Shown here in pieces: positions 3,794 to 17,542 of a stretch of 24,294 nucleotides of DNA (position 1 is its first letter; each line of letters begins with the position of its first letter). A program made the position numbers and the translations under genes. The stretch is from Kiritimatiellia bacterium. GTDB taxonomy: Bacteria; Verrucomicrobiota; Kiritimatiellia; RFP12; UBA1067. Below the pieces are notes generated by a model. It had not been told where the DNA came from. It did no database searches and saw only the letters and a list, made by a program, of their open reading frames with translations. Location: assembly GCA_017547265.1 (NCBI GenBank), contig JAFYQC010000044.1, positions 1 through 24,294 of the forward strand, given 5' to 3'.

Positions 3794-5017
3794 ATGCTCC
3801 ACGTAAACGAAAACTACTCGAAGATACAGGCAAGCTACCTCTTCACCGAAATCGCCCATCGCGTCTCTGCGCACCAGGCGGCAAACCCCGACGCGAAGAT
3901 AATCCGTCTTGGCATAGGCGACGTCACCGAGCCGCTTTGCGACGCTGTCGTAAAGGCGATGCACAAGGCAGTCGACGACGAGGCGACGCGTAAGGACTTC
4001 CACGGCTACGGCCCGGAGCAGGGCTACGCGTTTCTCCGCGAGAAGGCGGCGAAGATCGACTTTCAGGACCGCGGCATAGACATTGCTGCCGACGAGATAT
4101 TCATTTCCGACGGCGCGAAGTGCGACTGTGGCAACATACAGGAGCTTTTCGGGCACGATGTCAAGATTGCGGTCGGCGATCCTGTATATCCCGTCTACGT
4201 AGACACGAATGTGATGGCCGGCCGTACCGGTGCTAACGACGGCGGGCGGTATGCGGGGCTCGTCTACTTGACGTGCGACGCGTCAAACGGCTTTGTGCCT
4301 GGCCCTGAATCGGCTGATGGTGCCGACATCGTATACCTCTGCTATCCGAACAACCCGACTGGTGCTGTCGCCACGAAGGAACAGCTCCAGAAGTGGGTCG
4401 ACTGGGCGAATGCGAACAAGTCGCTCATCCTCTTCGACGCCGCCTACGAGGCGTTCATAAGGACTCCCGGGAGTCCCCATTCCATCTACGAGTGCGCTGG
4501 AGCACGCAGTTGTGCGATCGAGTTCCGCAGCTACTCGAAGACTGCTGGCTTCACCGGAGTCCGCTGCGGCTACACGGTAGTTCCGAAGGGCCTTGTCGCG
4601 TATGCAAATGACGGCTCGCCCGTCGAGCTGAGGCCGATGTGGACGCGTCGCCAGACTACGAAGTTCAATGGCGCGAGCTACATTACCCAGCGCGGCGCGG
4701 AGGCGATCTACTCTCCTGAGGGCCAGGCGCAGACAATGGCAACGATAGACTTCTACCTTGAAAACGGACGGCTTATGAAGGAGGCGCTTTCGGCTCTCGG
4801 CTACGAAGTGACCGGTGGCGGAAACTCGCCGTATCTCTGGGTCAATGTGAAGGGCGACAGTTGGGAGTTTTTCGACAAGCTTCTTAAAAAGGCAAATGTC
4901 GTCACGACCCCTGGCGCCGGCTTCGGCAGGGCTGGCGAGGGATACATAAGGATTTCGTCGTTCAATTCGCGCGAGAACGTCCTCGAGGCGGTCGAGCGTC
5001 TAAAGAATGTTCTTTGA
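3794..5017 (+). CDS. dapL: LL-diaminopimelate aminotransferase
   Basis: PLP enzyme that converts tetrahydrodipicolinate directly to LL-diaminopimelate using glutamate, the one-step route to lysine and meso-DAP for peptidoglycan. The 407-residue protein has the diagnostic N-terminus ([17 protein letters not shown], then [11 protein letters not shown]), the substrate-specific [15 protein letters not shown] with N187, FDAAYEAFI with D215, and the Schiff-base lysine K249 in [10 protein letters not shown]. The C-terminal [20 protein letters not shown] fits the carboxylate-binding arginine region. Length is standard. The start is the ATG at 3794, because the family N-terminus begins there; no Shine-Dalgarno is obvious and the upstream gap is repetitive. 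The DapL pathway is typical of plants, Chlamydiae, Verrucomicrobia/Lentisphaerae relatives and some other bacteria, which supports a PVC origin. A lipoprotein gene follows after 13 bases. Confidence 0.97.
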
Positions 5018-5030
5018 AAGGAGAAACAAA

Positions 5031-6212
5031 ATGAAGAAACTGATGATCGTTGCCGCTGCTGCGGCGCTTTTCGCTGGATGCCAGAAGGAAGCCGAGAGGT
5101 TCGGCTACAAAGGTGTCGATCTTGCGGATGATGACTTGATGTTCTTTACGACGGGTCCGACCGTCACAAACTGGGTCCCCGCTCGAGTCTTGAGCGTGTG
5201 CGAGGAATACCAGATGAGCCCCGACGAGACAGCTCTTTTAGCGGCAGCAGGCGTAATCACTCCCGGTGAGCCACTCGAGAAGGTGCCTGAGGGCTATGCA
5301 AAGGACTCTGATGAGCCGTGGTTTGCCACGTGGAAGAAAGAAGCCGAGAACCTTGGCCGTAAGGGCGTGAACGGCTTCATCTCGCACTGGAATGAGGACA
5401 AGAACGTCTGGGAGACGAGCGAGACGTATTTCTCCTCCTACTATCCCGACGAGGCCGGCGCACTCGCAGCTCTTGCCGAGACGCGCGAAATCATTGGCAG
5501 CAAGTTCTCTCCGAAGAAGTTCTACGACTTCGACAAGTGCTGGGTTGCCGAGTATCTTCGACTTCGCGTCATGTGCATTGTCGGCCAGAAGCCCGACGGG
5601 ACATGGTCGTGCATGCTCGACATAAACGACAAGTGCCGCCCTGGCTGTGGACAGTGGGAGCCCATCGAAGCTCAGGCAGAACGTCTTGCAGAGTACAAGT
5701 ACCGCAAGGCGCTTGCTGCATGGAAGGCGGAGAGGTCCAAGGTTCTCGCGGATAACCATGCGGCGGTCGAGAAGATTCGTGCAGAAAAGGGCCTTGCGCT
5801 CCTCGGGGAAGGAGCTCGTGAATTCGACGGCGAGGATGGTCGCAAGGCGTATATTCGCGTAGGCACTTGCGATGCCGCGACTGTGACAAACAGGGTCGAC
5901 TTCTGGAAGGAGAAGGCTGCCGTCCTCGCGGCTGCGACGGGCGTTGTCTTCGAAGGCGAGCCGATAAGCGAGGAAGATCCTTCTGGCTATGTCGTCTTGA
6001 GTGGATTGGCGGCTAACGACATATACGACGTGCGGCTTGATATGGCGTTTCCGCCCGTGCCCGCGGCAGCGGAGGGAGAGGCGAAGCTGGAAGGCGAGAA
6101 AACCGAGGAGGAGCCTGCGCCGAAGCCCCCGGTTGAATGGCGCGAGCTCTGCATCGAGAAGTTGCAGGCTGGCTTCGCGATTCCTCCGCGTCCGCAGCCG
6201 CCGACGCGGTGA
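5031..6212 (+). CDS. Predicted lipoprotein of unknown function
   Basis: I do not recognise this family. The protein has about 393 residues with an N-terminal lipoprotein signal: two lysines, a run of Ala/Val/Leu and lipobox L-F-A-G-C with C17 as the lipidated residue. The body is hydrophilic and rich in Trp, Tyr and Glu, with a helical, charge-rich stretch near residues 215-265 (possible coiled coil) and a Glu/Pro-rich linker near 345-370 ending in PPRPQPPTR, suggesting an extended envelope-facing tail. Two segments share a loose pattern (a TALLAAAGV..GEP stretch near 70-85 and a VLAAATGVVFEGEP stretch near 300-315), so it may contain a divergent internal duplication. The ATG at 5031 is chosen over an upstream in-frame ATG at 5007 because AAAGGAGAAA precedes it and it starts the signal peptide. 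It follows dapL by 13 bases and converges directly on the next gene. Confidence 0.8.
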   Translation: MKKLMIVAAAAALFAGCQKEAERFGYKGVDLADDDLMFFTTGPTVTNWVPARVLSVCEEYQMSPDETALLAAAGVITPGEPLEKVPEGYAKDSDEPWFATWKKEAENLGRKGVNGFISHWNEDKNVWETSETYFSSYYPDEAGALAALAETREIIGSKFSPKKFYDFDKCWVAEYLRLRVMCIVGQKPDGTWSCMLDINDKCRPGCGQWEPIEAQAERLAEYKYRKALAAWKAERSKVLADNHAAVEKIRAEKGLALLGEGAREFDGEDGRKAYIRVGTCDAATVTNRVDFWKEKAAVLAAATGVVFEGEPISEEDPSGYVVLSGLAANDIYDVRLDMAFPPVPAAAEGEAKLEGEKTEEEPAPKPPVEWRELCIEKLQAGFAIPPRPQPPTR

Positions 6213-6779
6213 TCAGCCGAGGAATTCGTCCATTGTGTCTGAGCCGGGATGGTTTATGCCGTCCCGGCTCGCCGTTTTGAAGACGGTAAGGAAAAGGATC
6301 TTGAGGTCGAGGAGAAGCGAGCGGTTGTCGACATACCAGACGTCGAGACGGAACTTCTCCTCCCACGAAAGGGCATTGCGGCCGTTCACTTGCGCCCAGC
6401 CGGTGATGCCGGGCCTGACCTCGTGGCGGCGCGCTTGCTCGGGCGAATAGCGCGGAAGATATCTCGAAGGGAGAGGGCGCGGACCGACGAGGGCCATCTT
6501 GCCAGAAAGGACGTGCAGAAGCTGCGGTAGCTCGTCTAAAGAAGTTGCGCGCAAGAACCGCCCGAGCCGCGTAAGACGTTCGGCGTCCGTGCCCTCGCCG
6601 CTGCGCATCGTCCGGAACTTGAGCATTGTAAAGACGCGTCCGCCTTTGCCTGCGCGCTCCTGCCTGAAGAGGACTGGACGGCCGTTAAAGGCCAGAATTG
6701 CGACTGCGACAAGCGCGGCAATTGGGACCCACAGCGGAGCGGCGACAATAACGGCAAAAGATTCAATGACTCTTTTCAC
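6213..6779 (-). CDS. Initiating phosphoglycosyl transferase (PglC/bacterial sugar transferase family)
   Basis: Small monotopic phosphoglycosyl transferase that puts a sugar-1-phosphate on undecaprenyl phosphate at the cytoplasmic face, the first step of glycan assembly. The 188-residue protein has an N-terminal re-entrant hydrophobic helix (residues about 6-30), VLFRQERAG, KFRTM, the catalytic Asp-Glu pair D82-E83 in SLDELPQL, LVGPRPL and PGITGWAQVNGRN. Size matches PglC rather than the large WbaP/WcaJ type that carries extra N-terminal helices. The GTG at 6779 is chosen because the membrane helix follows it, and a TATAAT box six bases upstream would start transcription close to this codon, implying a leaderless message. 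It is divergent from a PglD-like acyltransferase. The exact sugar is not determined. Its 3' end abuts the stop of the convergent lipoprotein gene. Confidence 0.92.
   Translation of the reverse strand: MKRVIESFAVIVAAPLWVPIAALVAVAILAFNGRPVLFRQERAGKGGRVFTMLKFRTMRSGEGTDAERLTRLGRFLRATSLDELPQLLHVLSGKMALVGPRPLPSRYLPRYSPEQARRHEVRPGITGWAQVNGRNALSWEEKFRLDVWYVDNRSLLLDLKILFLTVFKTASRDGINHPGSDTMDEFLG
6241..6270 (+). terminator. Possible terminator hairpin inside the 3' end of the convergent gene
   Basis: GAGCCGGGATGG and CCGTCCCGGCTC form a 12-bp stem with one T-G pair around the loop TTTATG, followed by GCCGTTTTG on the + strand. It begins 28 bases after the stop codon of the + strand lipoprotein gene, so it could terminate that operon while lying within codons 171-180 of the sugar transferase. 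The T-run is short and offset, so the hairpin is clear but termination is inference. Confidence 0.5.
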
Positions 6780-6785
6780 GGCACT

Positions 6786-6791
6786 ATTATA
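6786..6791 (-). promoter_or_regulatory. -10 box for the sugar transferase gene
   Basis: On the - strand the bases read TATAAT, and only six bases separate the box from the GTG start codon at 6779. Normal promoter geometry puts the transcription start at or next to the GTG. It lies back to back with the + strand -10 box at 6803-6808. No strong -35 was found. Confidence 0.6.
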
Positions 6792-6799
6792 GCAAATTA

Positions 6800-6808
6800 T
6801 GGTATAAT
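6800..6808 (+). promoter_or_regulatory. Extended -10 promoter for the acyltransferase-kdtA operon
   Basis: TGGTATAAT is an extended -10 element. Transcription would begin near 6815, leaving a short leader with AAGGAG seven bases before the ATG at 6833. The same nine-base element recurs before gspG, the glycosidase and (on the - strand) the dehydrogenase. Confidence 0.7.
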
Positions 6809-6832
6809 TTACGCACAGCAAGGAGAATTCCC

Positions 6833-7458: not shown

Positions 7459-9843
7459 GTGAAGAAGGTTATCTATAACCTGCTGTTCGCCATCGTCTAT
7501 CCGTTTCTTCTGCCTGGCTTCCTCGTCCGAATGCTGAGGCGCGGCGGATATGCCGCGCGGATGGGCGATAGATTCGCGCTCTATCCCGACGAGGTGCTGG
7601 CCAAGTTCAGGGAAGGTGGTTTCGTCTGGATTCACGCCGTTTCCGTCGGCGAGGTCCAGGTCGCGGGCCAGCTTATGCGCGAATGGCGGAAGGTCGAGCA
7701 AGGCGTCAGGTTCGTCTTTTCCACGACGAGTTCCACCGGTTGGAAGATGGCGGAGAAGGAAGTCTCCGGGCGCGATGTGCTCATATACAATCCGCTTGAT
7801 TTTCCGAACTTCGTCAAGAGTGCGCTGAAGACCGTCCGTCCCCGTGCGGTAGTCCTCACCGAAAGCGAGATATGGCCCAACTTCATCTGGACGGCGCGAC
7901 GCTACCGCATACCGGTCTTTCTGATAAACGCGCGCGTCAGCGACCGCAGTGCGCCACGCTACAAGGCCGCCAGATGGTTCTTCGGCGACGTTCTCTCGTC
8001 GTTTGCCCGCATCTTCGCGCAGTCCGATCTCGACGCGACGCGTCTTGTCGCCGCCGGCGCTCCTGAAAGAATCGTCGAGGTGACGGGCAGCTTTAAGTTC
8101 GACGTCGCGCACCGCAACGAGGCGAAGGAACGCGAACTCCGGGAGTGGATTGGCTCTGGTCGCATACTTCTCGGCGGTTCGACATGGCCGGGCGAGGACG
8201 AGGCGCTTCTCCGCATTTATTCCGATATTGCAAAGGTGCAGGGAGATGTCTCGCAAGTCAAGCTCGTCATAGCACCTCGCCACTTTGAGAAAGCCGACGC
8301 CGTCGAGGCGAACATAAAATCCGCCGGCTTCTCCTGCGTCAGGCGTTCGCGAGGAGAATGTGGAACGATGGCGGACCGCGGTCGCCTCGGAGAGGCGACC
8401 CTACCAAGTGAGCGAGGAGCGGTGTTTCTTGCCGACACGACGGGCGAGTTGATGGGGCTTTATGGAATCTCCGACGTCGTGTTCGTCGGGAAGTCACTCT
8501 GCGCCCACGGAAGCCAGAACATGATTGAACCGTGCCTTTGCGGCAAGCCGACGGCCGTTGGACCTTACACCGAGAACTTCCGTCCCGTCATGAGCGATCT
8601 TCTTGCGGCTGACGCCATACGCCAGGTGAAGGACGAAAAGGAGCTTGGCGAATTCGTGAAAACATCTTTTGCCGATGACGGCGGGCTTGGTGCACGCGCG
8701 GCGGCGGCAGTCGAGCGCCGCAAGGGTGTCGTACCGAAGTGTGTTGAAGCGATCCGCCGTGCGCTTGTCTGCGTCGCGCTCCTTCTCGTCGTCGCCGGGT
8801 GCGGGAATGGCGGCGGCGAAGATGCCAAGAATACAAAAGCTGAGCCAGAGGAAAGCTCGTTCCGCCCGGTCAAGATAACTACCGCCTGCATCGCTGCACT
8901 TGAGAAGCCAACGGCGACGCGAGTGCTTCTCGCAGATGACAAGGCCGAGACATTCAGGCCGTTCCTCTCTTCGTTCGGCGTCATCTGCGTCTCGAACGAG
9001 GAGGCCGCCGCGGAATCGAAGTTCGACATCGTATTTCTCGCCGGCAGATCAGATGCCGATAAGCTTTCCAATGCCCTCGGTCGCACTGGCGAGGCCGGCA
9101 TCCTTGCATGGCGGCTTGTGGTCAAGGACATGAGCGCCGAGGATTTCAAGAATGCCGTCGAGTCATTCCCCTGCGAGTCGGCGCATCTCTGGATGCCGAG
9201 TTCCGAGGAGTGGGTTTTCGTCGGCCGTCGCTCGCCACGAAAGATAAAGCTCGACGCAATGATGGACGTCTTTTCGCGCGAAGTGGCGTTCGAGGCTCTT
9301 GCCGAGGCAAAGGCGACAGCGCTTTCCGACGTCTTTGCAAGCTATGTCGGAAATCTTGACGGGCTATCAGACGCGTTTGTCTCGACGAACCTCTCGGCAG
9401 TAGTGCGTCCGGAGTTTTTTGTGACGAAGGACATCCCGCCTCTTGACTGGGTGACGCGTGGCGACGTTGACGAAGACATCTACAAGGCAACGCTCGCCGA
9501 GATTCGCTCGATGCAGGTAGTGCGGCGGCTTATAATCGAGGGCGATCTCATCGCCGCGGAAGGAAAGGCGGACGATGCCACTGAAGTGTGGGCACGGGCC
9601 ATGCTAAGGAATCCACGCGATCCGATGCTGCTCGACCGTCTCGACCGGCTTTCCCGCAACGCAGAGGCGCTTCTTGCCGTAGGCAACGTCACTGCCGCTA
9701 CAAAGTGCTACGAGACAATGGTTGTCATAAATCCGACGGATGCGTCGGCAGTCTTAAAATACGGCATGAGCCTTCGGCGCCTCGGCATGAAGGAAATGTC
9801 AGATCAAGTGCTCAAACGAGCAGGGGAGCTAAGGAAAAAGTGA
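7459..9843 (+). CDS. kdtA: Kdo transferase (KdtA/WaaA) fused to a lipoprotein-like C-terminal region with TPR-like repeats
   Basis: Residues 1 to about 435 are a CMP-Kdo:lipid A transferase of the inner-membrane cytoplasmic face. Seen are an N-terminal anchor helix (about 5-27), WIHAVSVGEV with E65 as probable catalytic base, STTSSTGW, ESEIWPNFIW, GSTWPGEDEALL, DTTGELMGLYG, and GSQNMIEPCLCGKP with GPYTENF. The frame then continues without an in-frame ATG, GTG or TTG at the junction into VCVALLLVVAGC, a signal/lipobox-like segment with Cys448, a Gly/Glu linker, a Rossmann-like half (about 470-580) that loosely recalls the C-terminal part of spermidine-synthase-like proteins, and two TPR-like helical repeats near 690-790. 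The total of 794 residues is nearly twice the usual length. A palindrome encodes an insertion near residues 300-318. GTG start; the stop overlaps the next gene by four bases. Confidence 0.88.
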   Translation: MKKVIYNLLFAIVYPFLLPGFLVRMLRRGGYAARMGDRFALYPDEVLAKFREGGFVWIHAVSVGEVQVAGQLMREWRKVEQGVRFVFSTTSSTGWKMAEKEVSGRDVLIYNPLDFPNFVKSALKTVRPRAVVLTESEIWPNFIWTARRYRIPVFLINARVSDRSAPRYKAARWFFGDVLSSFARIFAQSDLDATRLVAAGAPERIVEVTGSFKFDVAHRNEAKERELREWIGSGRILLGGSTWPGEDEALLRIYSDIAKVQGDVSQVKLVIAPRHFEKADAVEANIKSAGFSCVRRSRGECGTMADRGRLGEATLPSERGAVFLADTTGELMGLYGISDVVFVGKSLCAHGSQNMIEPCLCGKPTAVGPYTENFRPVMSDLLAADAIRQVKDEKELGEFVKTSFADDGGLGARAAAAVERRKGVVPKCVEAIRRALVCVALLLVVAGCGNGGGEDAKNTKAEPEESSFRPVKITTACIAALEKPTATRVLLADDKAETFRPFLSSFGVICVSNEEAAAESKFDIVFLAGRSDADKLSNALGRTGEAGILAWRLVVKDMSAEDFKNAVESFPCESAHLWMPSSEEWVFVGRRSPRKIKLDAMMDVFSREVAFEALAEAKATALSDVFASYVGNLDGLSDAFVSTNLSAVVRPEFFVTKDIPPLDWVTRGDVDEDIYKATLAEIRSMQVVRRLIIEGDLIAAEGKADDATEVWARAMLRNPRDPMLLDRLDRLSRNAEALLAVGNVTAATKCYETMVVINPTDASAVLKYGMSLRRLGMKEMSDQVLKRAGELRKK
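8380..8400. repeat. Perfect palindrome in frame inside the kdtA-like gene
   Basis: GGTCGCCTC and GAGGCGACC form a perfect 9-bp stem around the 3-base loop GGA. The element encodes RGRLGEAT within an insertion between the RRS motif and the DTTGEL motif of the Kdo transferase, a place where other family members have a short variable loop. A stem this perfect is unlikely to come from codon choice alone. Confidence 0.75.
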
Positions 9844-10535
9844 AAAAGACGATAATGGCGTTGTCGCTGCTTGCGTTTGCGGGCTGCTTCACCATATTCG
9901 AGAGCGACTATCCTGCAGTCGAGATGTCCGCCGCAGGCAATGCGGACATCAAAGTTCAGCTCGCGGGTTTCGAGGCGAGTGTCACGACATACGAAGTCGT
10001 CTATGGATACGAGACGGCGTACCGCTACCACTATGGCTATCGTCGTCACTACGGCTACTGGGGGCCTTCGACGGTGATGACCGAGACTTATGTTCCGCAG
10101 ACACGTGCGACATCGACCTTCATCGACCGCGCGACGGAAATACTCGAGCTCAACGGATTCAATCCAAAAACCGACAAGCCTGAGTACCGCATTGAGGTGA
10201 AGTTCGACGGGCCTTTTATGAGCGACGGAGAACGCGCGGCCGAGGCCGCATGGACCATCTTCTCGCTGTTCACGGCGGACTACGGCGTCCATACTTGGAC
10301 TGCGAAGCTAAAGGTCTACGACATCGCCACAGGCAAGCTTCTCATGCACTACGACTATTCCGAGCGCTACTCCGCCCTTGTCTGGGGCCCGATTCCTCTG
10401 TTCAGCCCGGCAGGTTCCGACAAGACGTCGGCGAGCTCGATGCAGCGCTGGTGCCTTATGGCGCTCACCGACCGCGCAATGGCAGACGCAACGGCGTTCC
10501 TTGCGGCGCAGGCAAAGCCAGCCAAGGCGGAATGA
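9840..10535 (+). CDS. Tyrosine-rich predicted lipoprotein
   Basis: Predicted lipoprotein of about 231 residues with no family I can name with confidence. The start is GTG at 9840, overlapping the preceding stop as GTGA with AGGGGAG and AAGGA upstream. The signal peptide ends in lipobox L-A-F-A-G-C, C16 being the lipidated residue. A Tyr/His/Gly/Arg-rich stretch (VYGYETAYRYHYGYRRHYGYWG, about residues 58-79) is followed by a compact alpha/beta region in which YRIEVKFDGP, AKLKVYDIATGKLLMHYDYS and a C-terminal helix suggest an outer-membrane-associated fold. This loosely recalls lipoproteins of the DUF4136/LptE-like type, but that comparison is weak. It is translationally coupled to the kdtA fusion and followed 34 bases later by a peptidase gene, so envelope work is likely. 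Confidence 0.75.
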   Translation: MKKTIMALSLLAFAGCFTIFESDYPAVEMSAAGNADIKVQLAGFEASVTTYEVVYGYETAYRYHYGYRRHYGYWGPSTVMTETYVPQTRATSTFIDRATEILELNGFNPKTDKPEYRIEVKFDGPFMSDGERAAEAAWTIFSLFTADYGVHTWTAKLKVYDIATGKLLMHYDYSERYSALVWGPIPLFSPAGSDKTSASSMQRWCLMALTDRAMADATAFLAAQAKPAKAE

Positions 10536-10569: not shown

Positions 10570-13530
10570 ATGAAAAACGTAATAATCTCGATTGTTGCTG
10601 TTGCCGCAGGAGCGGCGATGTCTCTTTGTGCCGCCGAAAACTTCGCCGCTGGCGACAAGGTCAGCGGGTTTGCAGTAAAGTCTGTCACGGATCTCCCCGA
10701 GGTCAAGGGGCGGATGGTCCGAATGGAATACGAGAAGAACGGCGCCGAGCTGATCTGGTTTGATCGTGACGACGACTGCAAGACATTCGCAATCGGCTTC
10801 CGCACTCTGCCGTACGATGATACCGGGGTGCCGCACATAATCGAGCACTCGGTGCTGTGCGGTTCCGAGAAATATCCAGTGAAGGATCCGTTCGTGCAGC
10901 TTGCGAAGGGCTCCTTTACGACGTTTCTGAACGCATTCACGTCCCCGGACTGTACCTGCTATCCTGTTTGTTCCCGCAACCAGCAGGAATTGCTCAACCT
11001 CATGGACGTCTATATGGACGCTGTACTCCATCCTTTGAGCGTACAGTCGCCATTGGCGTTTAAGCAGGAGGGCTGGCACTACGAGCTGGACGGGCCTGAC
11101 GGCGAGCTTAAGCGCAATGGCATCGTGTACAGCGAGATGAAGGGTGGCTTTTCAAATCCCGAGAGACTGCTTTACACCGAGGTCTCTCGACTGCTCTATC
11201 CCGACACTACGTACGGCTTTGTGTCTGGAGGCGACCCCGCTGCGATACCGACGCTCACGTTCGAGATGTACAAGTCCTTCTACAACCGATTCTACCATCC
11301 GTCAAACGCTCGCATCTTCCTCGACGGAAACATGGACGTGAAGGCTGTCCTTGCGAAGCTTGACAGCTTCCTTTCGCCGTATGAGCGCAAGGTCGTGGAC
11401 GCGCCAGTGAAGTTTCAGCGTCCAGTCAGTGCAGAGAAGACGATGGAATACGAGATAGGGGCGGACGAGAAGTCCGAGGGCAAGGTGTATGTCGCGACCG
11501 GATGGGTTTGCGGGCGTTTCGACGAGCGCGAGAAAAGCCGTGCGCTTGAAGTGCTTGTCGCCGTGATTGCTGGCGACAACTCGTCACCGCTGAAAAAGGC
11601 GCTCGTCGACGCAGGGCTTTGCGAAGACCTCTACTGGGGTTGCAGTCAGATGGCGCAGATTAGGTCGGGATTGACTGTCAAGGGCGTCAAGGCCGAGAAT
11701 GTCGATGCAGTCCGCAACACGATTAGCGAAACGCTTTCCCGACTTGCCGCAGAAGGGCTCGACCATGCCCGCATAGAGGCGGTTCTCGACCGCACGGAGT
11801 TTAATGTCAGGGAGAAAGACACTGGTTCCACGCCGCGTGGGCTTGATATTTATTTCGATGCGTCCTCGTTGTGGAACTACGGCGGCGATCCGGCAGATGC
11901 GTTCCGCAACGATGCGATATTCGCCTCGCTTCGCGGGAAGATTGCAACCGGCGGGTTCGAGAAGTTGCTCAAGGAGTGCTTTATCGACAATCCGCACGTC
12001 GTGAGACTTACTATGACGCCTTCCAAGACGATCGCCGCGGAGCGCGCCGAGGCGGAAAAGAAGGCGCTCGCCGCGATAAAGGCCGGGTGGAGCAAAGAAG
12101 AACTCGACAAGGTGCTTGCAGAATGTAGCGCCCTTAAGAAATTCCAGGCAGATCCATCCAAGCCCGAGGACCTTGCGAAGCTCCCGCGCCTGTCGCTGTC
12201 CGACATTCCGGAGATGGGCACGTACGTCCCGCGCGAAATCGTCAAGGCCGGCGGAGTGACGGTCGTGCGTCCCCACACTCATGCAAACGGAATTCTCCAC
12301 GCCGAGTGCCATTTCAGCGCGGAGGACTTTACGGCCGAGGAACTTGCCGACCTTCCATTCCTTGCGCATCTTTTCACGAACCTTCGCACGTCTCGTCGTT
12401 CGCTTGACGACCTGCGCAACTTCCGGGACGGACGCCTCGGGCGCTTTTACTCGTCGGTGGGCGTCTATTCCTCGCCAAAGGACGGCGAGGGCCGTCCATA
12501 TTTCACCGTCAGGGTGTCGGCTCTTGAGTCCCGCGCGGACGATGCGCTCGGCTTTGTCCCCGAAGTGCTGCGCGAGACGCAGTTTGACGACATAAAGGCG
12601 ATTGGCAAGCTGCTGCGGCAGGACCGTCTTGACGCGGAGCAGATGCCAAACGGAATCTCTGGCTCCCATTTCGCGAATAGCCGCGCAACAGCACAGCTGA
12701 CATCTCGTGGCGCGATGGACGAGATTATCGGCGGCATTGCCCACATCCGCCATCTGCAGAAGGTGGATGACGATTTCGCAGAGCATGGCGCTGACTTCGC
12801 CAAGCATCTCGCAGGCCTCGCCGCAAAACTCTTTACGAGAGACCGTCTCGTCGTGTGTCTGCCCGACAACATTCCGATTTCCTGGGCCGAACGCATCGCC
12901 GAGGCGTTTCCACGCGGCGAGATCGGGCCGCGGCAGGAAATAAAGCCGTTCCCAAGGAAAAAGGAGGGCTTCCGCACTTTGGGTACCATTAGTGGAACGG
13001 CCATGGTTGCCCATCCTGCCAAGTACCCGTACAGCGGTAAGGCGATTGTCGCCGCTCGTGTGCTTTCATATGGCTATCTCTGGGAAGAGATACGCGTGAA
13101 GGGCGGTGCCTACGGCGGCAATTTCGGGGTCGGCCGCAGCGGCGACGCCAGTTGGTCGTCCTGGAACGATCCAAAGCCGGCGCGCACGCTTGACGTATAT
13201 GCCGGGTGCGGCAAGGCCCTCAGGGCTTTTGCTGACGGCGATGATTCGCTAGACAGCCAGATAGTGAGCGCCATTGCAAGGTCAGAGCCGTACCAGACGC
13301 CAAGCGCCGAAACATACTCTGCGTCGTCATTGTGGCTTTCCGGCCGCACTCCAGACGACCTGCAGCGCACCCGCTCTGAAATGCTCAAGACCACGAAGCA
13401 GGACCTTCGCGCCTTCGCCGACGAAGTCGACGCAATGACGTCTTCCACCGCAATCTGCATCGTAGGCGGTGCCCAGCTCGTGGACTCCTGCACAAACCTT
13501 CTCGATCATGTCGAGACGCTTGCACGATGA
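10570..13530 (+). CDS. Exported M16C zinc metallopeptidase (PreP/presequence-protease-like)
   Basis: Large clam-shell M16C peptidase of 986 residues that, in the family, degrades unfolded peptides up to roughly 65 residues inside a closed chamber. The inverted zinc motif is complete (H89-I-I-E92-H93), with the third ligand E189 in VYSEMKGGFSNPE. TFLNAFTSPDCTCYPV corresponds to the TFLNAxTxPDxTxYP motif, and the C-terminal RVKGGAYGGNFG carries the substrate-binding Arg/Tyr of the second half. Residues 1-21 form a signal peptide (basic start, hydrophobic run, A-M-S-L-C-A-A), so unlike mitochondrial or cytosolic relatives it should act in the periplasm or outside. Length equals full-size PreP, so both halves are present. 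The Shine-Dalgarno is weak (GGAAAA). It is the last gene of the acyltransferase-kdtA operon, just upstream of the pseudopilin promoter. Confidence 0.93.
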   Translation: MKNVIISIVAVAAGAAMSLCAAENFAAGDKVSGFAVKSVTDLPEVKGRMVRMEYEKNGAELIWFDRDDDCKTFAIGFRTLPYDDTGVPHIIEHSVLCGSEKYPVKDPFVQLAKGSFTTFLNAFTSPDCTCYPVCSRNQQELLNLMDVYMDAVLHPLSVQSPLAFKQEGWHYELDGPDGELKRNGIVYSEMKGGFSNPERLLYTEVSRLLYPDTTYGFVSGGDPAAIPTLTFEMYKSFYNRFYHPSNARIFLDGNMDVKAVLAKLDSFLSPYERKVVDAPVKFQRPVSAEKTMEYEIGADEKSEGKVYVATGWVCGRFDEREKSRALEVLVAVIAGDNSSPLKKALVDAGLCEDLYWGCSQMAQIRSGLTVKGVKAENVDAVRNTISETLSRLAAEGLDHARIEAVLDRTEFNVREKDTGSTPRGLDIYFDASSLWNYGGDPADAFRNDAIFASLRGKIATGGFEKLLKECFIDNPHVVRLTMTPSKTIAAERAEAEKKALAAIKAGWSKEELDKVLAECSALKKFQADPSKPEDLAKLPRLSLSDIPEMGTYVPREIVKAGGVTVVRPHTHANGILHAECHFSAEDFTAEELADLPFLAHLFTNLRTSRRSLDDLRNFRDGRLGRFYSSVGVYSSPKDGEGRPYFTVRVSALESRADDALGFVPEVLRETQFDDIKAIGKLLRQDRLDAEQMPNGISGSHFANSRATAQLTSRGAMDEIIGGIAHIRHLQKVDDDFAEHGADFAKHLAGLAAKLFTRDRLVVCLPDNIPISWAERIAEAFPRGEIGPRQEIKPFPRKKEGFRTLGTISGTAMVAHPAKYPYSGKAIVAARVLSYGYLWEEIRVKGGAYGGNFGVGRSGDASWSSWNDPKPARTLDVYAGCGKALRAFADGDDSLDSQIVSAIARSEPYQTPSAETYSASSLWLSGRTPDDLQRTRSEMLKTTKQDLRAFADEVDAMTSSTAICIVGGAQLVDSCTNLLDHVETLAR

Positions 13531-13551
13531 GTCGTTTAGCCACTGTGGCAG

Positions 13552-13581
13552 TTGCCGAGAGGCAGTCCATAATGGTATAAT
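13552..13581 (+). promoter_or_regulatory. Promoter of the pseudopilin-folD operon
   Basis: TTGCCG (13552-13557) and TATAAT (13576-13581) are separated by 18 bases and the -10 is extended (TGGTATAAT). Transcription should begin near 13588, just before the strong ribosome binding site AGGAGG (13591-13596) and the ATG at 13601, giving a leader of only about 13 bases. Confidence 0.75.
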
Positions 13582-13600
13582 ATCGACAACAGGAGGAAAC

Positions 13601-14032
13601 ATGAAAAAAGAAGAGACAATTGCAGTTTCGGCGATGCGCGCCGGCTTTACGCTAATCGAGATCCTCGTGGCCGTGGCCATTATCGGCATCCTCGGCACGA
13701 CGGCCGCAATCGGTATTCCTCGGATCCTTGAAAACGCCAAGATCAGAGCGGCAAAGGTCGGTGTCGACAACCTCAAGGGTGCCGTCGTGACGTACAATAT
13801 TGAGAAGGGCAAGTACCCCAACGACCTCAAGTCGCTTGTCGAGGCATCTGGCGACGACGAGCCGATCGTCGATGGCGGAGAAGGTGCTCTGTACGATCCG
13901 TGGGGAACGGAGTACAAGTACGAGAAGAAGGGCAAGCGTTTTGTGATTATCAGCGCCGGCCCGGACGGTGAATTCGGCGGCGACGACGACATCCGCAGCG
14001 ACGTCACGAAGAAGGCCGGCGGAAACGACTGA
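13601..14032 (+). CDS. gspG: Type II secretion major pseudopilin GspG
   Basis: Major subunit of the type II secretion pseudopilus, processed by the prepilin peptidase at the inner membrane. The 143-residue protein has a leader ending in R-A-G before FTLIEILVAVAIIGILG; cleavage after G15 makes F16 the first residue and E20 the conserved Glu5. The C-terminal half has the GspG pattern: KYPNDLKSLVE, LYDPWGTEYKYE, and an Asp/Gly-rich end (SAGPDGEFGGDDDI) that corresponds to the calcium-binding loop of GspG. The ATG at 13601 follows AGGAGG directly; an in-frame start further upstream would add an unlikely leader. First gene of a run with gspH, I, J, K and folD. Confidence 0.95.
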   Translation: MKKEETIAVSAMRAGFTLIEILVAVAIIGILGTTAAIGIPRILENAKIRAAKVGVDNLKGAVVTYNIEKGKYPNDLKSLVEASGDDEPIVDGGEGALYDPWGTEYKYEKKGKRFVIISAGPDGEFGGDDDIRSDVTKKAGGND

Positions 14033-14054
14033 CGTCCCCGCTGTCGCGCTTGCG

Positions 14055-14861
14055 ATGCGCAGGGCCTTTACACTCATCGAGATACTTGTCGTTGTCGCCA
14101 TTATGGCGATAATGGCGACCGCCGCTGTACTCGGCGTCCGCGCAGGGCAGGACGCCGCGCGCGTCAAGGGCGCAACGAGGGATATCATGGCGTCGATACG
14201 TCACGCGCGCTCAATGGCGCTCGTCATGATGCAGCCCGCCATCATAACCTACTCGACAACCCATGTGGACGACGAAGTTTGCGCCCAGATCAAGGTTGAC
14301 GGCGCGAAGCTCATGGGGAAGACCTCGTCCGACACTGTGCAGACTCTTTCTGGCGAAATCGTGATGCGCGATGGATCCAAGGTGGAAGACGTAAAAAAGA
14401 AAGCTGCTTCGGGCGAGGAAGCCAAGGAACTTCTCGAAGACACAGGCGGGGACACTGTTGAGGACTACCTCTTCGCGCCCATATCAACAGAAATCATGCG
14501 CGGAGTGCGAATCAAGGTTGTCGTAGGTGACGAAGAGTTGTCTCTCGAGCAGGACGAGAGGAAGAACGCAAGTAAAATTTCGGTGTTCTCCAACGTGGAC
14601 TACCTGCTCGGGAAGTACAAGGAGAAGAAAGCCGAAGAGGAAAAGGCCGCTGCGGAGAAAGCTGCGGAATCTCAAAGTGCCTCGGCTCCGGCAAACCGCG
14701 AAGAAGACCAGGAGCCGGTTAGCGTGGTGTGGGAGGCGAACGGGCGCTGCGACCCTCACCGCGTTTGGGTGTATCTCGACGGTTCGACCCCAGAGAAGGG
14801 GCTCTGCATAAAGATCGACCACTTCGGCGCGGCCAAGATACTGTCAAACGACGAGGACTGA
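14055..14861 (+). CDS. gspH: Minor pseudopilin, GspH/FimT-like
   Basis: Prepilin-type protein of about 268 residues: a very short leader M-R-R-A then FTLIEILVVVAIMAIMATAAVLG with Glu5. The residue before the cleavage point is Ala rather than Gly. Order in the operon (after gspG, before gspI) and the region RVKGATRDIMASIRHARSMALVMM after the helix fit GspH. It is longer than usual GspH (about 170-200 residues), mostly because of a charged region with KEKKAEEEKAAAEKAAES (about 190-220), a probable flexible or coiled-coil linker, before a C-terminal VVWEANGRCDPHRVWVYL strand region. The ATG at 14055 is preferred over the GTG at 13968, which would overlap gspG by 65 bases and give a 30-residue leader. 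No clear Shine-Dalgarno; translation may couple to gspG 22 bases upstream. Confidence 0.85.
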   Translation: MRRAFTLIEILVVVAIMAIMATAAVLGVRAGQDAARVKGATRDIMASIRHARSMALVMMQPAIITYSTTHVDDEVCAQIKVDGAKLMGKTSSDTVQTLSGEIVMRDGSKVEDVKKKAASGEEAKELLEDTGGDTVEDYLFAPISTEIMRGVRIKVVVGDEELSLEQDERKNASKISVFSNVDYLLGKYKEKKAEEEKAAAEKAAESQSASAPANREEDQEPVSVVWEANGRCDPHRVWVYLDGSTPEKGLCIKIDHFGAAKILSNDED

Positions 14862-14865
14862 CGCC

Positions 14866-15324
14866 ATGCGAAAAGGATTTACATTGCTAGAAGTCCTGCT
14901 CGCCTCGATAATCCTCGGGGCGGGGCTTGCGGCGATACTCGTCTCGATGTCGCAGAGCCAGAAGATGATGCTGTCCTCGTCCGCGCTCGAGACGGCACAG
15001 GAGGTGATGGATCTCGGGGAAATGGCCTATCCTCTTTCGGACGTTAAGGACCCGGACCAGGATCTCGACGTCAGCGAGACGAAGGCGACTGAGCTTTGGG
15101 ACATAATCTCCGGCTCTCATGGGCCGAAGTTGTCGCGAGAGCAGGAGGAGAAGTTCCAGGGGTACACTTGGGAGCGCGTCGCGCTGAACCGCAAGGACGA
15201 CGAGGACGACATAAAGCGCCTCGGCAACCTCTATACCGTGCGTGTTATCGTTCGCTGGGGAGACAACCGCCGTGGCGAAAATGAAGAGGAAAGCTACGTC
15301 ACGTTCTGGAGGAAGAAGGAATGA
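14866..15324 (+). CDS. gspI: Minor pseudopilin GspI
   Basis: Minor pseudopilin of 152 residues that forms the tip complex with GspJ and GspK. Leader M-R-K-G followed by FTLLEVLLASIILGAGLAAIL, with Glu5 present. The following MSQSQKMMLSSSALETAQEVMDLGEM corresponds to the GspI helix with variable residues before the globular domain, and GYTWERVALNR plus YTVRVIVRWGD fit the family beta strands ending at W-R-K. Length is slightly above the usual 120-130 because of an Asp-rich insert (SDVKDPDQDLDVSETKA). The ATG is four bases after the gspH stop and its own stop overlaps the gspJ start as ATGA. Confidence 0.9.
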   Translation: MRKGFTLLEVLLASIILGAGLAAILVSMSQSQKMMLSSSALETAQEVMDLGEMAYPLSDVKDPDQDLDVSETKATELWDIISGSHGPKLSREQEEKFQGYTWERVALNRKDDEDDIKRLGNLYTVRVIVRWGDNRRGENEEESYVTFWRKKE

Positions 15325-16301
15325 AGCGCGCCTTTACACTTATAGAGCTTCTTCTCGCCGCCGTGCTTCTCGGCGTCCTCACGTCGCTTACGATGATGAC
15401 CTTCAACTCCGTAACCCACGGCTGGCAGGTCTCCACTGACTACCTTGACAAGATGCAGCGTACCGATTTCGCGCTCAACCAGGTCATATCTGGCTTAAGA
15501 AGTCTCTACTACCCCCATGGCGGCGAGCAGAGCTACGACTACGGATTCTATCTTACCGACAACGGCGATGGCGAGGATCCTGACCGCTCCGACGTCATAG
15601 AGTGGTCAAAGCGCGGTTCTGCGATAGTCGGCTCGAAAAGCGCCGCTGTTGACACCGTGCATCGCGTCCAGCTCATGGTGCTTGAGGAGGGGAACCGCGA
15701 CTACATTGAGCCAATAGAGGTCACTGGGCTCTATGCGCGCCACTGCCCCGATGTTACGTTGCGTCCAAAGGACAACCGCGACGACATTGACTTCTCCTTT
15801 GGCAACGACGAGATGTACCAGCCGGTTCTCGTGGCAGACGGCATCGTCGGCTTCAACTGCCGGGTCCTGCCCACTGACGAAAAGGTCGAAGCAGAGCACG
15901 ATGAATCTCTTTTCGAAGACAAGTGGGATACGTCCAACGCCGTGCCCTACAAGATCGAACTCACTTTCTACCTTGCCGACCCCGATGGCCGTGCCTATCG
16001 TTCGAATACGGCGCCTATCATGCGCATAGTGCGGATGCCCTTGTACGAGCAGTCAAAGGACGGCGCGGCTCCTCCGTCAGAGAAGGCCGCGCGTGAAAGC
16101 GGCGGCGCTAGGCGCAATTCTTCAGGTGGGTCTGGGCGCACGAGCGGCGGCGGTGGCCAGCCTGGTGGCGGCGTTCCTGGCGGTGGCCCCGGAGGTGGTC
16201 CAAGCGGTGGAGGCGCCAGACCAGGTGGTGGTGGACAGCCTGGCGGAGGCGCGCGTCCAGGTGGCGGCGGTGCGCCGCCGCCGGGAGGAGGAATGCGATG
16301 A
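15321..16301 (+). CDS. gspJ: Minor pseudopilin GspJ with a long Gly/Pro-rich C-terminal tail
   Basis: Tip-complex pseudopilin. Leader M-K-R-A, then FTLIELLLAAVLLGVLTSLTMMTF with Glu5 and Ala at the cleavage point. The domain with DKMQRTDFALNQVISGLRSLYYP, MVLEEGNRDYIEPIEVTGLYAR, ADGIVGFNCRVLP and PYKIELTFYLADPDG fits GspJ up to about residue 255. The remaining roughly 65 residues are a Gly/Pro/Ser/Arg tail built from GGG-x-P-G-type units, absent from standard GspJ (about 190-230 residues). The DNA of this tail (16120-16298) is GGTGGC-rich and repetitive. It overlaps gspI and gspK by four bases each (ATGA). Confidence 0.88.
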   Translation: MKRAFTLIELLLAAVLLGVLTSLTMMTFNSVTHGWQVSTDYLDKMQRTDFALNQVISGLRSLYYPHGGEQSYDYGFYLTDNGDGEDPDRSDVIEWSKRGSAIVGSKSAAVDTVHRVQLMVLEEGNRDYIEPIEVTGLYARHCPDVTLRPKDNRDDIDFSFGNDEMYQPVLVADGIVGFNCRVLPTDEKVEAEHDESLFEDKWDTSNAVPYKIELTFYLADPDGRAYRSNTAPIMRIVRMPLYEQSKDGAAPPSEKAARESGGARRNSSGGSGRTSGGGGQPGGGVPGGGPGGGPSGGGARPGGGGQPGGGARPGGGGAPPPGGGMR

Positions 16302-17542
16302 GACGTGCAAGTGCGCTATTGATGGCTCTTTGGATAATTGCCGTGCTATCGATCATGGTGCTGTCCTTTGCGTCCGAGGCACATCTCCAGACTGGGATCA
16401 ATGTATATGTGCGCGAAAGAAACCGCGTAAATCGCCTTGTCGATGCGGGACGCATACTTGCCGAGGTCGTGATATCCGACTACTCAAACGTGTCTGAATG
16501 GACCGAGGACGAAGATGCCGACAAGCTCTTCGAGGACGATCGCTGGTACAAGGAGAAGCGGGACCTCAAGAGCGGGCGTCCCTGCGTCATAGGTCCAATT
16601 CTTGTCGACGAGGAGAACCCGGAATCTGGCACCGTCAAGGTTGAGATTTGCATTACGCGTGGGCTCAACATCAACGAGCTTACGCCTGATGGAGACCAGA
16701 ACTGGCGGCTCAGGTGGGAGATGATTCTCAAGAGCCACGGAATCCCTGAGGACTACGAAGTTGAGGCGTACGATTCGCAGCATCATTCACGTGGCAAAGT
16801 CAACCTGATCAATCTCCTTATCGCGAGTTTTGCGGACTGGGTTGACGCAGACGACAATGCGACTTCTATGGATGGCGAGGACTGCGGTGCGGAATCAAAA
16901 TGGTACGAGGAAGAGTATGACGACAACAAGGTCGACGACGAGGACAAACGTTATCCGCGCAACGGTGCGATTCCTGACATCAAGGAGCTTTCCTACATAC
17001 GCGGCTTCCGCGACTTCCCTGTCGTGTTGACGGGCGGCGTACTGAACCCCGAGGAAGATCCGAAGGACCAGATACACGTCCGCGGCATTGCTGACATGTT
17101 CAACACGCTTGGCAGCGCAAAGGTATTTGTCAACGACTGCACGCGCGACGAACTCATGACCGTTCCCGGCATTTTCGACGAGGAGGACGAAGAGGACCTC
17201 GAGAAGACAACCGAGAACATTGACGCAATCCTCGGCGCAAGGAGCGAGGAGCCCGACTACGACGTGGACGAATCCCTCGGCTGGTGGCAGTACAAGGACT
17301 TTCAGGATCTTCAGCAGCGTGTTGCCGACTATGGCGGGAACGATGCGCAGATTGGCACTGAGGCGAACAACTATCTACTCTTCAAGCCGGACGACACGAC
17401 GATTTTCGAGATAACGATAGAGTGCGAGTCGATGGGGATGACGCGCTCGGTCAGGGCGAAGGCGTACTTGAAGGACAAAGACGTTCGCTATGTCGAATGG
17501 GAGGAAGATCCCGTAGGGGACAGGAAGGAATCCGCAAAATGA
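16298..17542 (+). CDS. gspK: Minor pseudopilin GspK
   Basis: Largest pseudopilin, capping the tip of the pseudopilus. Of 414 residues, the N-terminus M-R-R-A-S-ALLMALWIIAVLSIMVLSF lacks Glu5, as expected for GspK, and is followed by a helix (VNRLVDAGRILAEVVISDYS). The middle holds GLNINELTPDGD, LLIASFADWVDADD (family DWxDxD) and the saposin-like helices; NTLGSAKVFVNDCTRDELMTVPGI matches the conserved VNxNTAxxxxLxxLPG region. The protein is unusually acidic, with runs such as EEEYDDNKVDDED and DEEDEEDLEK, which may bind calcium or reflect lineage bias. Length is above the usual 300-330. Start and stop overlap neighbours as ATGA. Confidence 0.9.
   Translation: MRRASALLMALWIIAVLSIMVLSFASEAHLQTGINVYVRERNRVNRLVDAGRILAEVVISDYSNVSEWTEDEDADKLFEDDRWYKEKRDLKSGRPCVIGPILVDEENPESGTVKVEICITRGLNINELTPDGDQNWRLRWEMILKSHGIPEDYEVEAYDSQHHSRGKVNLINLLIASFADWVDADDNATSMDGEDCGAESKWYEEEYDDNKVDDEDKRYPRNGAIPDIKELSYIRGFRDFPVVLTGGVLNPEEDPKDQIHVRGIADMFNTLGSAKVFVNDCTRDELMTVPGIFDEEDEEDLEKTTENIDAILGARSEEPDYDVDESLGWWQYKDFQDLQQRVADYGGNDAQIGTEANNYLLFKPDDTTIFEITIECESMGMTRSVRAKAYLKDKDVRYVEWEEDPVGDRKESAK

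Follow-up and report, generated by a model that had tools for sequence, protein, structure and literature searches.

We analyzed a 24,294-nucleotide stretch of DNA (the window) from a Kiritimatiellia bacterium (assembly GCA_017547265.1, contig JAFYQC010000044.1, positions 1 to 24,294 of the forward strand). At 7459-9843 on the plus strand, one open frame encodes a transferase for 3-deoxy-D-manno-octulosonic acid (Kdo), known as KdtA or WaaA, and then continues, without a stop codon, into a second part. The frame has a GTG start, 794 codons, and a TGA stop at 9841-9843; fused homologues were found. Residues 1-436 (7459-8766) are the KdtA part. At its end lies an apparent internal signal: 13 uncharged residues (435-447; 8761-8799) that follow Arg433-Arg434 and lead into a lipobox, V445-A446-G447-C448 (8791-8802). 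Next come a variable linker (residues 449-463; 8803-8847), a degenerate spermidine-synthase-like domain (about residues 464-657; 8848-9429), and a helical part with tetratricopeptide repeats (TPRs; residues 672-793; 9472-9837). The linker was modelled with low confidence (predicted local distance difference test, or pLDDT, below 50 at residues 448-459).

In the KdtA part, PF04413 (Glycos_transf_N) spans residues 34-216, with a score of 192.1 bits (cut-off 23.9; E = 8.3e-57). The solved WaaA of Aquifex aeolicus (2xci/2xcu) matches at E = 8.6e-20, and the S-x-G-E and E-x-E-x-W-P stretches, whose residues we take to be catalytic in WaaA, are aligned. S62, G64, E65, E135, E137, W139, and P140 are among the alignment columns at 90% or more. 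Five PRK05749 Kdo-transferase profiles also match, and because the best alignment covers residues 1-437 and stops there, we place the end of the enzyme near residue 436. None of the naming cut-offs of NCBIfam PRK05749.1-1 to -5 was reached (the best score was 283 bits versus 524, and the next was 282 versus 438), so the protein is not a member of those named WaaA subfamilies. A helix was modelled at residues 2-27 and is presumably a membrane anchor. Each of 15 genomes searched (of unstated completeness) has exactly one match to PF04413; it is fused in 14 of them (8 of the lipobox type) and separate in one (G069). LpxK is present in all 10 of the related genomes that were searched, and 7 of those carry the lipobox fusion. 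Given a single PF04413 gene and LpxK in the relatives' genomes, this half is likely to transfer Kdo to the lipid A precursor.

Residues 435-448 read A-L-V-C-V-A-L-L-L-V-V-A-G-C and are preceded by KCVEAIRR; the codon for Cys448 is at 8800-8802. By inspection, this is the anatomy of a type II signal, with R433-R434 as the n-region, a 13-residue h-region, and VAGC. In an ordinary lipoprotein the signal would be at the N-terminus of the chain, whereas here 447 residues precede the cysteine. An initial annotation of this DNA had proposed that the enzyme ends near residue 435, that a lipobox lies at Cys448, and that no ATG, GTG, or TTG at the junction could start a separate lipoprotein. All three statements hold: the closest such codon in frame before Cys448 is a GTG at 8656-8658, 48 codons upstream. 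In the structure model, the last helix of KdtA and the internal signal merge into one continuous helix (residues 424-448).

To see how well the junction is conserved, we searched for proteins with residues 400-794 and examined the best 120 of 143 hits. The search admits proteins of 0.55-1.75 times the query's length (about 437-1390 amino acids), and free lipoproteins of about 360 amino acids could not appear; it measures conservation and not the fraction that is fused, which comes from the DNA searches below. Among these 120, 114 have 740-855 amino acids and are fused, and the other six (436-672 amino acids) still span the junction. Five carry a name given by their source: four are called 3-deoxy-D-manno-octulosonic acid transferase, and one, a 463-amino-acid piece, TPR repeat protein. 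The protein's double nature cannot be seen from these names.

We aligned the junction across 121 sequences (including the query, and with many near-copies). G447 and C448 are invariant in all 121, despite 43 different versions of residues 431-448. Among 28 representatives that share less than 90% identity, the mean column identity is 1.0 for G447-C448, 0.68 for residues 431-446, and 0.52 for the linker (residues 449-466), while it is 0.85 for KdtA (residues 26-430) and 0.78 for residues 467-794. Most of the lipoboxes are VAGC (95 of 121); the others are VVGC (7), IAGC (5), VFGC (5), AAGC (4), SAGC (2), and AVGC, VSGC, and LTGC (once each). The last charged residue, Asn, or Gln is 13-16 positions from the cysteine in every sequence. 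The longest uncharged run, including the cysteine, has a median of 15 in free lipoproteins of the sister lineages (11 rows), and of 20 (range 11-26) in fusions of the membrane-helix type (15 rows; see below). The residue after Cys448 is Gly in 118 of 121 sequences and is never Asp. In E. coli, the residue after the lipoprotein's cysteine marks retention in the inner membrane; by that rule Gly would be no such mark, and the rule may not fit this phylum. Both Lgt and LspA turned up in every one of the 10 related genomes searched, including 7 with the lipobox fusion.

We then compared the DNA around kdtA in relatives. Of 117 related loci, 80 were kept (L001-L080). L001-L072 are close relatives, titled Kiritimatiellae, Lentisphaerae, Verrucomicrobia, or uncultured bacterium; L073-L080 are from more distant Verrucomicrobiota (35-37% identity), and there domain 2 is not beside kdtA. 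Of 114 genomes from one family, 102 had matches, and 8 of these have the lipobox fusion. The tree of KdtA was built from 96 of 102 classified, non-redundant kdtA rows, with six outgroup rows (L073-L078) dropped; the row set omits duplicates as well as L071, which is fused with an incomplete kdtA. Helix counts, topology, and signal types were read by eye from the sequences. Before the trees were built, nine anchor labels were changed by hand: L004, L006, L007, and L009 became lipobox fusions (the script had chosen an earlier cysteine), L034, L043, and L049 became membrane-helix, and L014 and L015 became signal-peptidase-I-like. These are quick trees with support from the Shimodaira-Hasegawa-like approximate likelihood ratio test (SH-aLRT) only, and L130 and L043 have long branches.

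The pair is fused in 29 of the 96 rows; the second gene is separate and near in 49, and it is missing from the stretch examined in 18. (Three of those 18 are at contig ends, and some have domain 2 elsewhere in the genome.) The lipobox fusions, including the window, group together on both trees: as a clade of 9 for KdtA (SH-aLRT of 99) and as a clade of 8 among 71 domain-2 sequences (SH-aLRT of 100). Overall, the KdtA tree implies 8 changes of fusion status, at least 5 of them forced by strongly supported branches, and the domain-2 tree implies 7; gains and losses are not told apart in these counts. Where the second gene is separate, it starts in a 4-base overlap with kdtA's stop in 34 of 49 rows (by the script's choice of start). 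In L021, L023, L024, L025, L028, and L045, this gene has a start of its own and encodes an ordinary lipoprotein. L035 is the most informative case: a GTG codon comes directly after kdtA's TAA stop and opens the lipoprotein, which is in frame with kdtA. Most simply, two coupled adjacent genes merged once in the ancestor of the window's clade. The window's arrangement could be reached from a neighboring gene of this kind by losing the stop and the short n-region, and KdtA's own Arg-Arg would have taken the place of the lost n-region.

For nine loci with the lipobox fusion (the window, L001-L007, and L009), we computed the ratio of nonsynonymous to synonymous polymorphism (pN/pS). It is 0.18 for KdtA, 0.20 for domain 2, 0.28 for codons 424-448, 0.45 for codons 437-446, and 0.41 for the linker (449-466). 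Purifying selection acts on both halves and across the junction. In all nine loci, the stretch across the junction varies in length by whole codons (43-46) and the frame is kept throughout.

The linkage to kdtA has limits. With tblastn and the window's KdtA, we found kdtA beside none of 20 further homologues of domain 2 (11 from genomes outside the searched family, and 9 from inside it but unlinked) within the stretches examined, several of which are cut by contig ends. Linkage to kdtA may therefore be an innovation of the searched family, but the 11 matches from outside are distant (E = 1.9e-49 to 6.0e-19). Across the class, a profile search had matches in 199 of 288 genomes, with many of the weaker matches covering only the TPR positions and so being uninformative about this protein.

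The initial annotation had described the second part as a lipoprotein with TPR-like repeats and had suggested searching it against profiles and predicting its structure. The repeats are real, and they account for only about the last 120 residues, with structural TPR matches over residues 727-794; a larger domain in front of them had gone unseen. The model of the C-terminal part (pLDDT of 94) consists of a degenerate spermidine-synthase fold followed by TPRs, and structural comparison identified both the aminopropyltransferase fold and the TPR fold. Across 71 domain-2 rows, Trp578, Arg689, Asp721, and Cys750 are invariant. A plain TPR lipoprotein is thus ruled out, as the larger part has the spermidine-synthase-like fold. 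The fold assignment comes from structural comparison other than Foldseek alone, which gave no match at E ≤ 0.001 (the best hits, from 2.1e-3, were a mix of TPR proteins and spermidine synthases), and profile support is weak. No spermidine synthase profile matched the protein from the window, L042, or L053, and L118 (12.7 bits) and L122 (9.9 bits) fell short of the 40-bit cut-off of NF037959 (fused MFS/spermidine synthase). For the repeats, Pfam's TPR_14 scored 20.1 bits for the whole protein and 21.7 bits for the second half alone, versus a cut-off of 23.5. Relatives with seven membrane helices, described below, do exceed the cut-offs of TPR profiles. The glycine-rich loop for S-adenosylmethionine (SAM) and the catalytic Asp, which we take to be the motifs of spermidine synthases, were not found in the window's protein, where TRVLLADDK and FDIVFLAGRS occupy those places, and both are altered in the seven-helix relatives. 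The absence of these motifs rules out an active spermidine synthase. As read from the sequence, the C-terminal part with its TPRs should face the periplasm, and our best guess for its role is the joint supply of factors for envelope assembly.

Elsewhere on the tree there are further fusions of this pair, which probably arose independently. In L111 (2495-6349), L112, and L113, KdtA is fused to a tail of 815-845 residues in one frame of 1255-1291 codons. These tails appear to have seven membrane helices and then the spermidine-synthase-like domain and TPRs, and the positive-inside rule predicts that their N-terminus is inside and their C-terminus outside. The long seven-helix protein is encoded by a separate gene in nine rows (L114, L117-L120, and L122-L125), at distances that range from overlapping to 1.7 kb away. 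Four other KdtA fusions (L067, L071, L130, and L131) have tails of 515-557 residues, and the tails of L067, L130, and L131 open with an extra HAWVYLQQN-like stretch ahead of the shared domain. In L014 (3522-3600) and L015 (3069-3125), a short hydrophobic stretch is followed by A-x-A, which by eye resembles a site for signal peptidase I. The simplest history compatible with the trees is that a seven-helix protein lost its helices stepwise, became anchored by a single helix or by a lipid, and merged with KdtA several times; its soluble part would have stayed in the periplasm all along.

How might the fused protein work? We think it more likely than not that Cys448 is lipidated and that LspA then cleaves the chain, which would give KdtA and a periplasmic lipoprotein in equal amounts. 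One chain would be made, and its residues 1-436 would stay cytoplasmic and be the only Kdo transferase of the cell. An internal type II signal at residues 433-447 would bring Cys448 to the periplasmic face, where Lgt would attach diacylglycerol to it and LspA would cut just before it. The first product would be KdtA with a short extra helix at its C-terminus. The second would be a lipid-anchored periplasmic protein, with a non-catalytic spermidine-synthase fold and TPRs, at a 1:1 ratio with KdtA. We favor cleavage because the type II anatomy at residues 433-448 is kept amid change, because Lgt and LspA are present in relatives, and because sister lineages have free lipoproteins. We infer the lipidation, the cleavage, the topology, the enzyme activity, and the role, which would be to supply Kdo transfer and a periplasmic envelope factor together or to couple them. 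More tentatively, Lgt followed by LspA might serve as a way to mature a polyprotein, and the periplasmic pseudo-aminopropyltransferase/TPR factor might couple the addition of Kdo to a later step of lipopolysaccharide (LPS) or envelope assembly.

Several observations weigh against this account. A type II signal after 430 residues is in an unusual location. Also, 15 of the 29 fused rows join the pair via a longer, uncut-looking membrane helix without a lipobox, so function does not need cleavage. These fusions show that tethering is tolerated or selected, and together with the continuous helix in the structure model, they suggest that the window's protein might not be cut either. The hydrophobic segment would then be a second membrane anchor that tethers KdtA to the periplasmic domain, with or without a lipid on Cys448. 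We consider this unlikely, since the uncharged run of 13-16 residues before the cysteine is short for a membrane helix, and since an invariant Gly-Cys among variable neighbors would be hard to explain if the lipobox were unused. Still, the existence of helix-linked fusions favors a physical or dosage link with the partner, rather than the cut itself, as what matters. It is also conceivable that ribosomes start a second time inside kdtA and so produce a free lipoprotein, either from GTG 8656 or from codon 432, which is ATA in 8 of the 9 loci and ATC in the other. A GTG lies 48-50 codons before the cysteine in 7 of the loci. Another in-frame GTG is just 23-25 codons before the cysteine in 3 of these loci, and 7 of the 121 sequences have Met at position 432 (P0102, P0103, P0104, P0108, P0109, P0113, and P0119), so a separate lipoprotein start is possible in those relatives. 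Against this, ATA and ATC are poor start codons and serve as Ile codons elsewhere in the gene; a 48-residue stretch ahead of a lipobox cysteine would be unusual, and L004 and L006 lack that GTG; and all nine loci stay in frame across the junction. Internal starts thus seem improbable for the window, more so than an uncut chain.

A different question is whether the fusion brings any benefit. If the genes were already coupled and LspA separates the products anyway, then losing the stop changed nothing. The 4-base overlap in most of the separate pairs fits with this, as do the repeated changes in fusion status, which suggest that fusion is easily gained or lost. On the other hand, all nine rows of the clade (eight genome loci plus the window) have kept the lipobox fusion, and the junction is under purifying selection. 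We regard a neutral fusion as possible, though doubtful; it shares the mechanism of cleavage by LspA and denies only the advantage, so the two explanations overlap. The initial annotation also raised the question of whether relatives have the same fusion or two separate genes, with separate genes pointing to a recent loss of a stop codon or to an assembly error. Both arrangements occur. Because the fusion is common to one whole clade (9 of 9 rows), recent loss of the stop is ruled out. That a stop went missing through an error in assembly or sequencing has a negligible chance and is refuted by the conserved fusion: independent contigs and metagenome-assembled genomes (MAGs) from several projects carry the same frame, and the nine loci keep it amid whole-codon variation.

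The window contains other genes as well. The next gene after the fusion (9840-10535, plus strand) overlaps it by 4 bases (GTGA) and encodes a small predicted lipoprotein (VKKTIMALSLLAFAGC...) with Gly-Cys-Phe after the signal. Of 31 loci examined (including the window), 14 have a similar gene after domain 2, in fused and separate arrangements alike; kdtA, domain 2, and this lipoprotein are thus often coupled in a row. Upstream, 5007-6212 has 401 codons and encodes a predicted lipoprotein (MKKLMIVAAAAALFAGC inside the listed frame), with no match in Pfam at E ≤ 1. Right at the stop of that frame ends a minus-strand gene for a bacterial sugar transferase (6213-6821; PF02397, E = 6.4e-59), which lies between two plus-strand genes. 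At 13469-17542 is a row of genes whose products have type IV pilin-like N-termini (FTLIEIL, FTLLEVL, and FTLIELL), followed by a 414-amino-acid protein; judging from these termini, this is probably a pseudopilin or type II secretion-like cluster.

If the fused protein is cut, then the lipoprotein pathway would be separating a pair of proteins at a lipobox inside the chain, and the range of places where type II signals can sit would widen. Signal predictors that read only N-termini would miss such a lipobox. If LspA does mature the polyprotein, then inhibiting LspA would at once affect LPS synthesis. More broadly, kdtA has merged repeatedly with one specific periplasmic partner. This comparative evidence speaks for a role of that partner in LPS or envelope assembly in Kiritimatiellae-type bacteria, and the fusion offers a concrete starting point for experiments on uncultured gut bacteria. 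Among the open-licence papers listed by our searches, no title or opening of an abstract deals with an internal lipobox or a KdtA-lipoprotein fusion, though a precedent may exist outside that set.

Compared to known systems, the first half resembles WaaA of A. aeolicus in its PF04413 domain, its H-x-x-S-x-G-E and E-x-E-x-W-P stretches, and the N-terminal helix that was modelled here. The profiles for WaaA, however, end where the second part begins, and we know of no lipobox or periplasmic domain in WaaA. Spermidine synthases and fused MFS-spermidine synthase proteins differ from the second half, which lacks both profile matches and their presumed motifs. The free lipoproteins beside kdtA in seven relatives (those with their own start that are listed above, and L035) have a homologous C-terminal domain and the same anatomy of signal and lipobox; unlike the window's protein, they have their own start codon, which lies in kdtA's stop or, in L035, directly after it. 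A parallel for the overall arrangement is FbcH of Bradyrhizobium, a cytochrome b/c1 precursor that is split at an internal signal by signal peptidase I. There too, one gene encodes a membrane or cytoplasmic part first, then an internal signal, and two mature proteins result, but signal peptidase I does the cutting, while in the window's protein LspA would cut at a type II lipobox. For signal peptidase I, then, the splitting of polyproteins at internal signals is known in principle, and a type II version would extend it.

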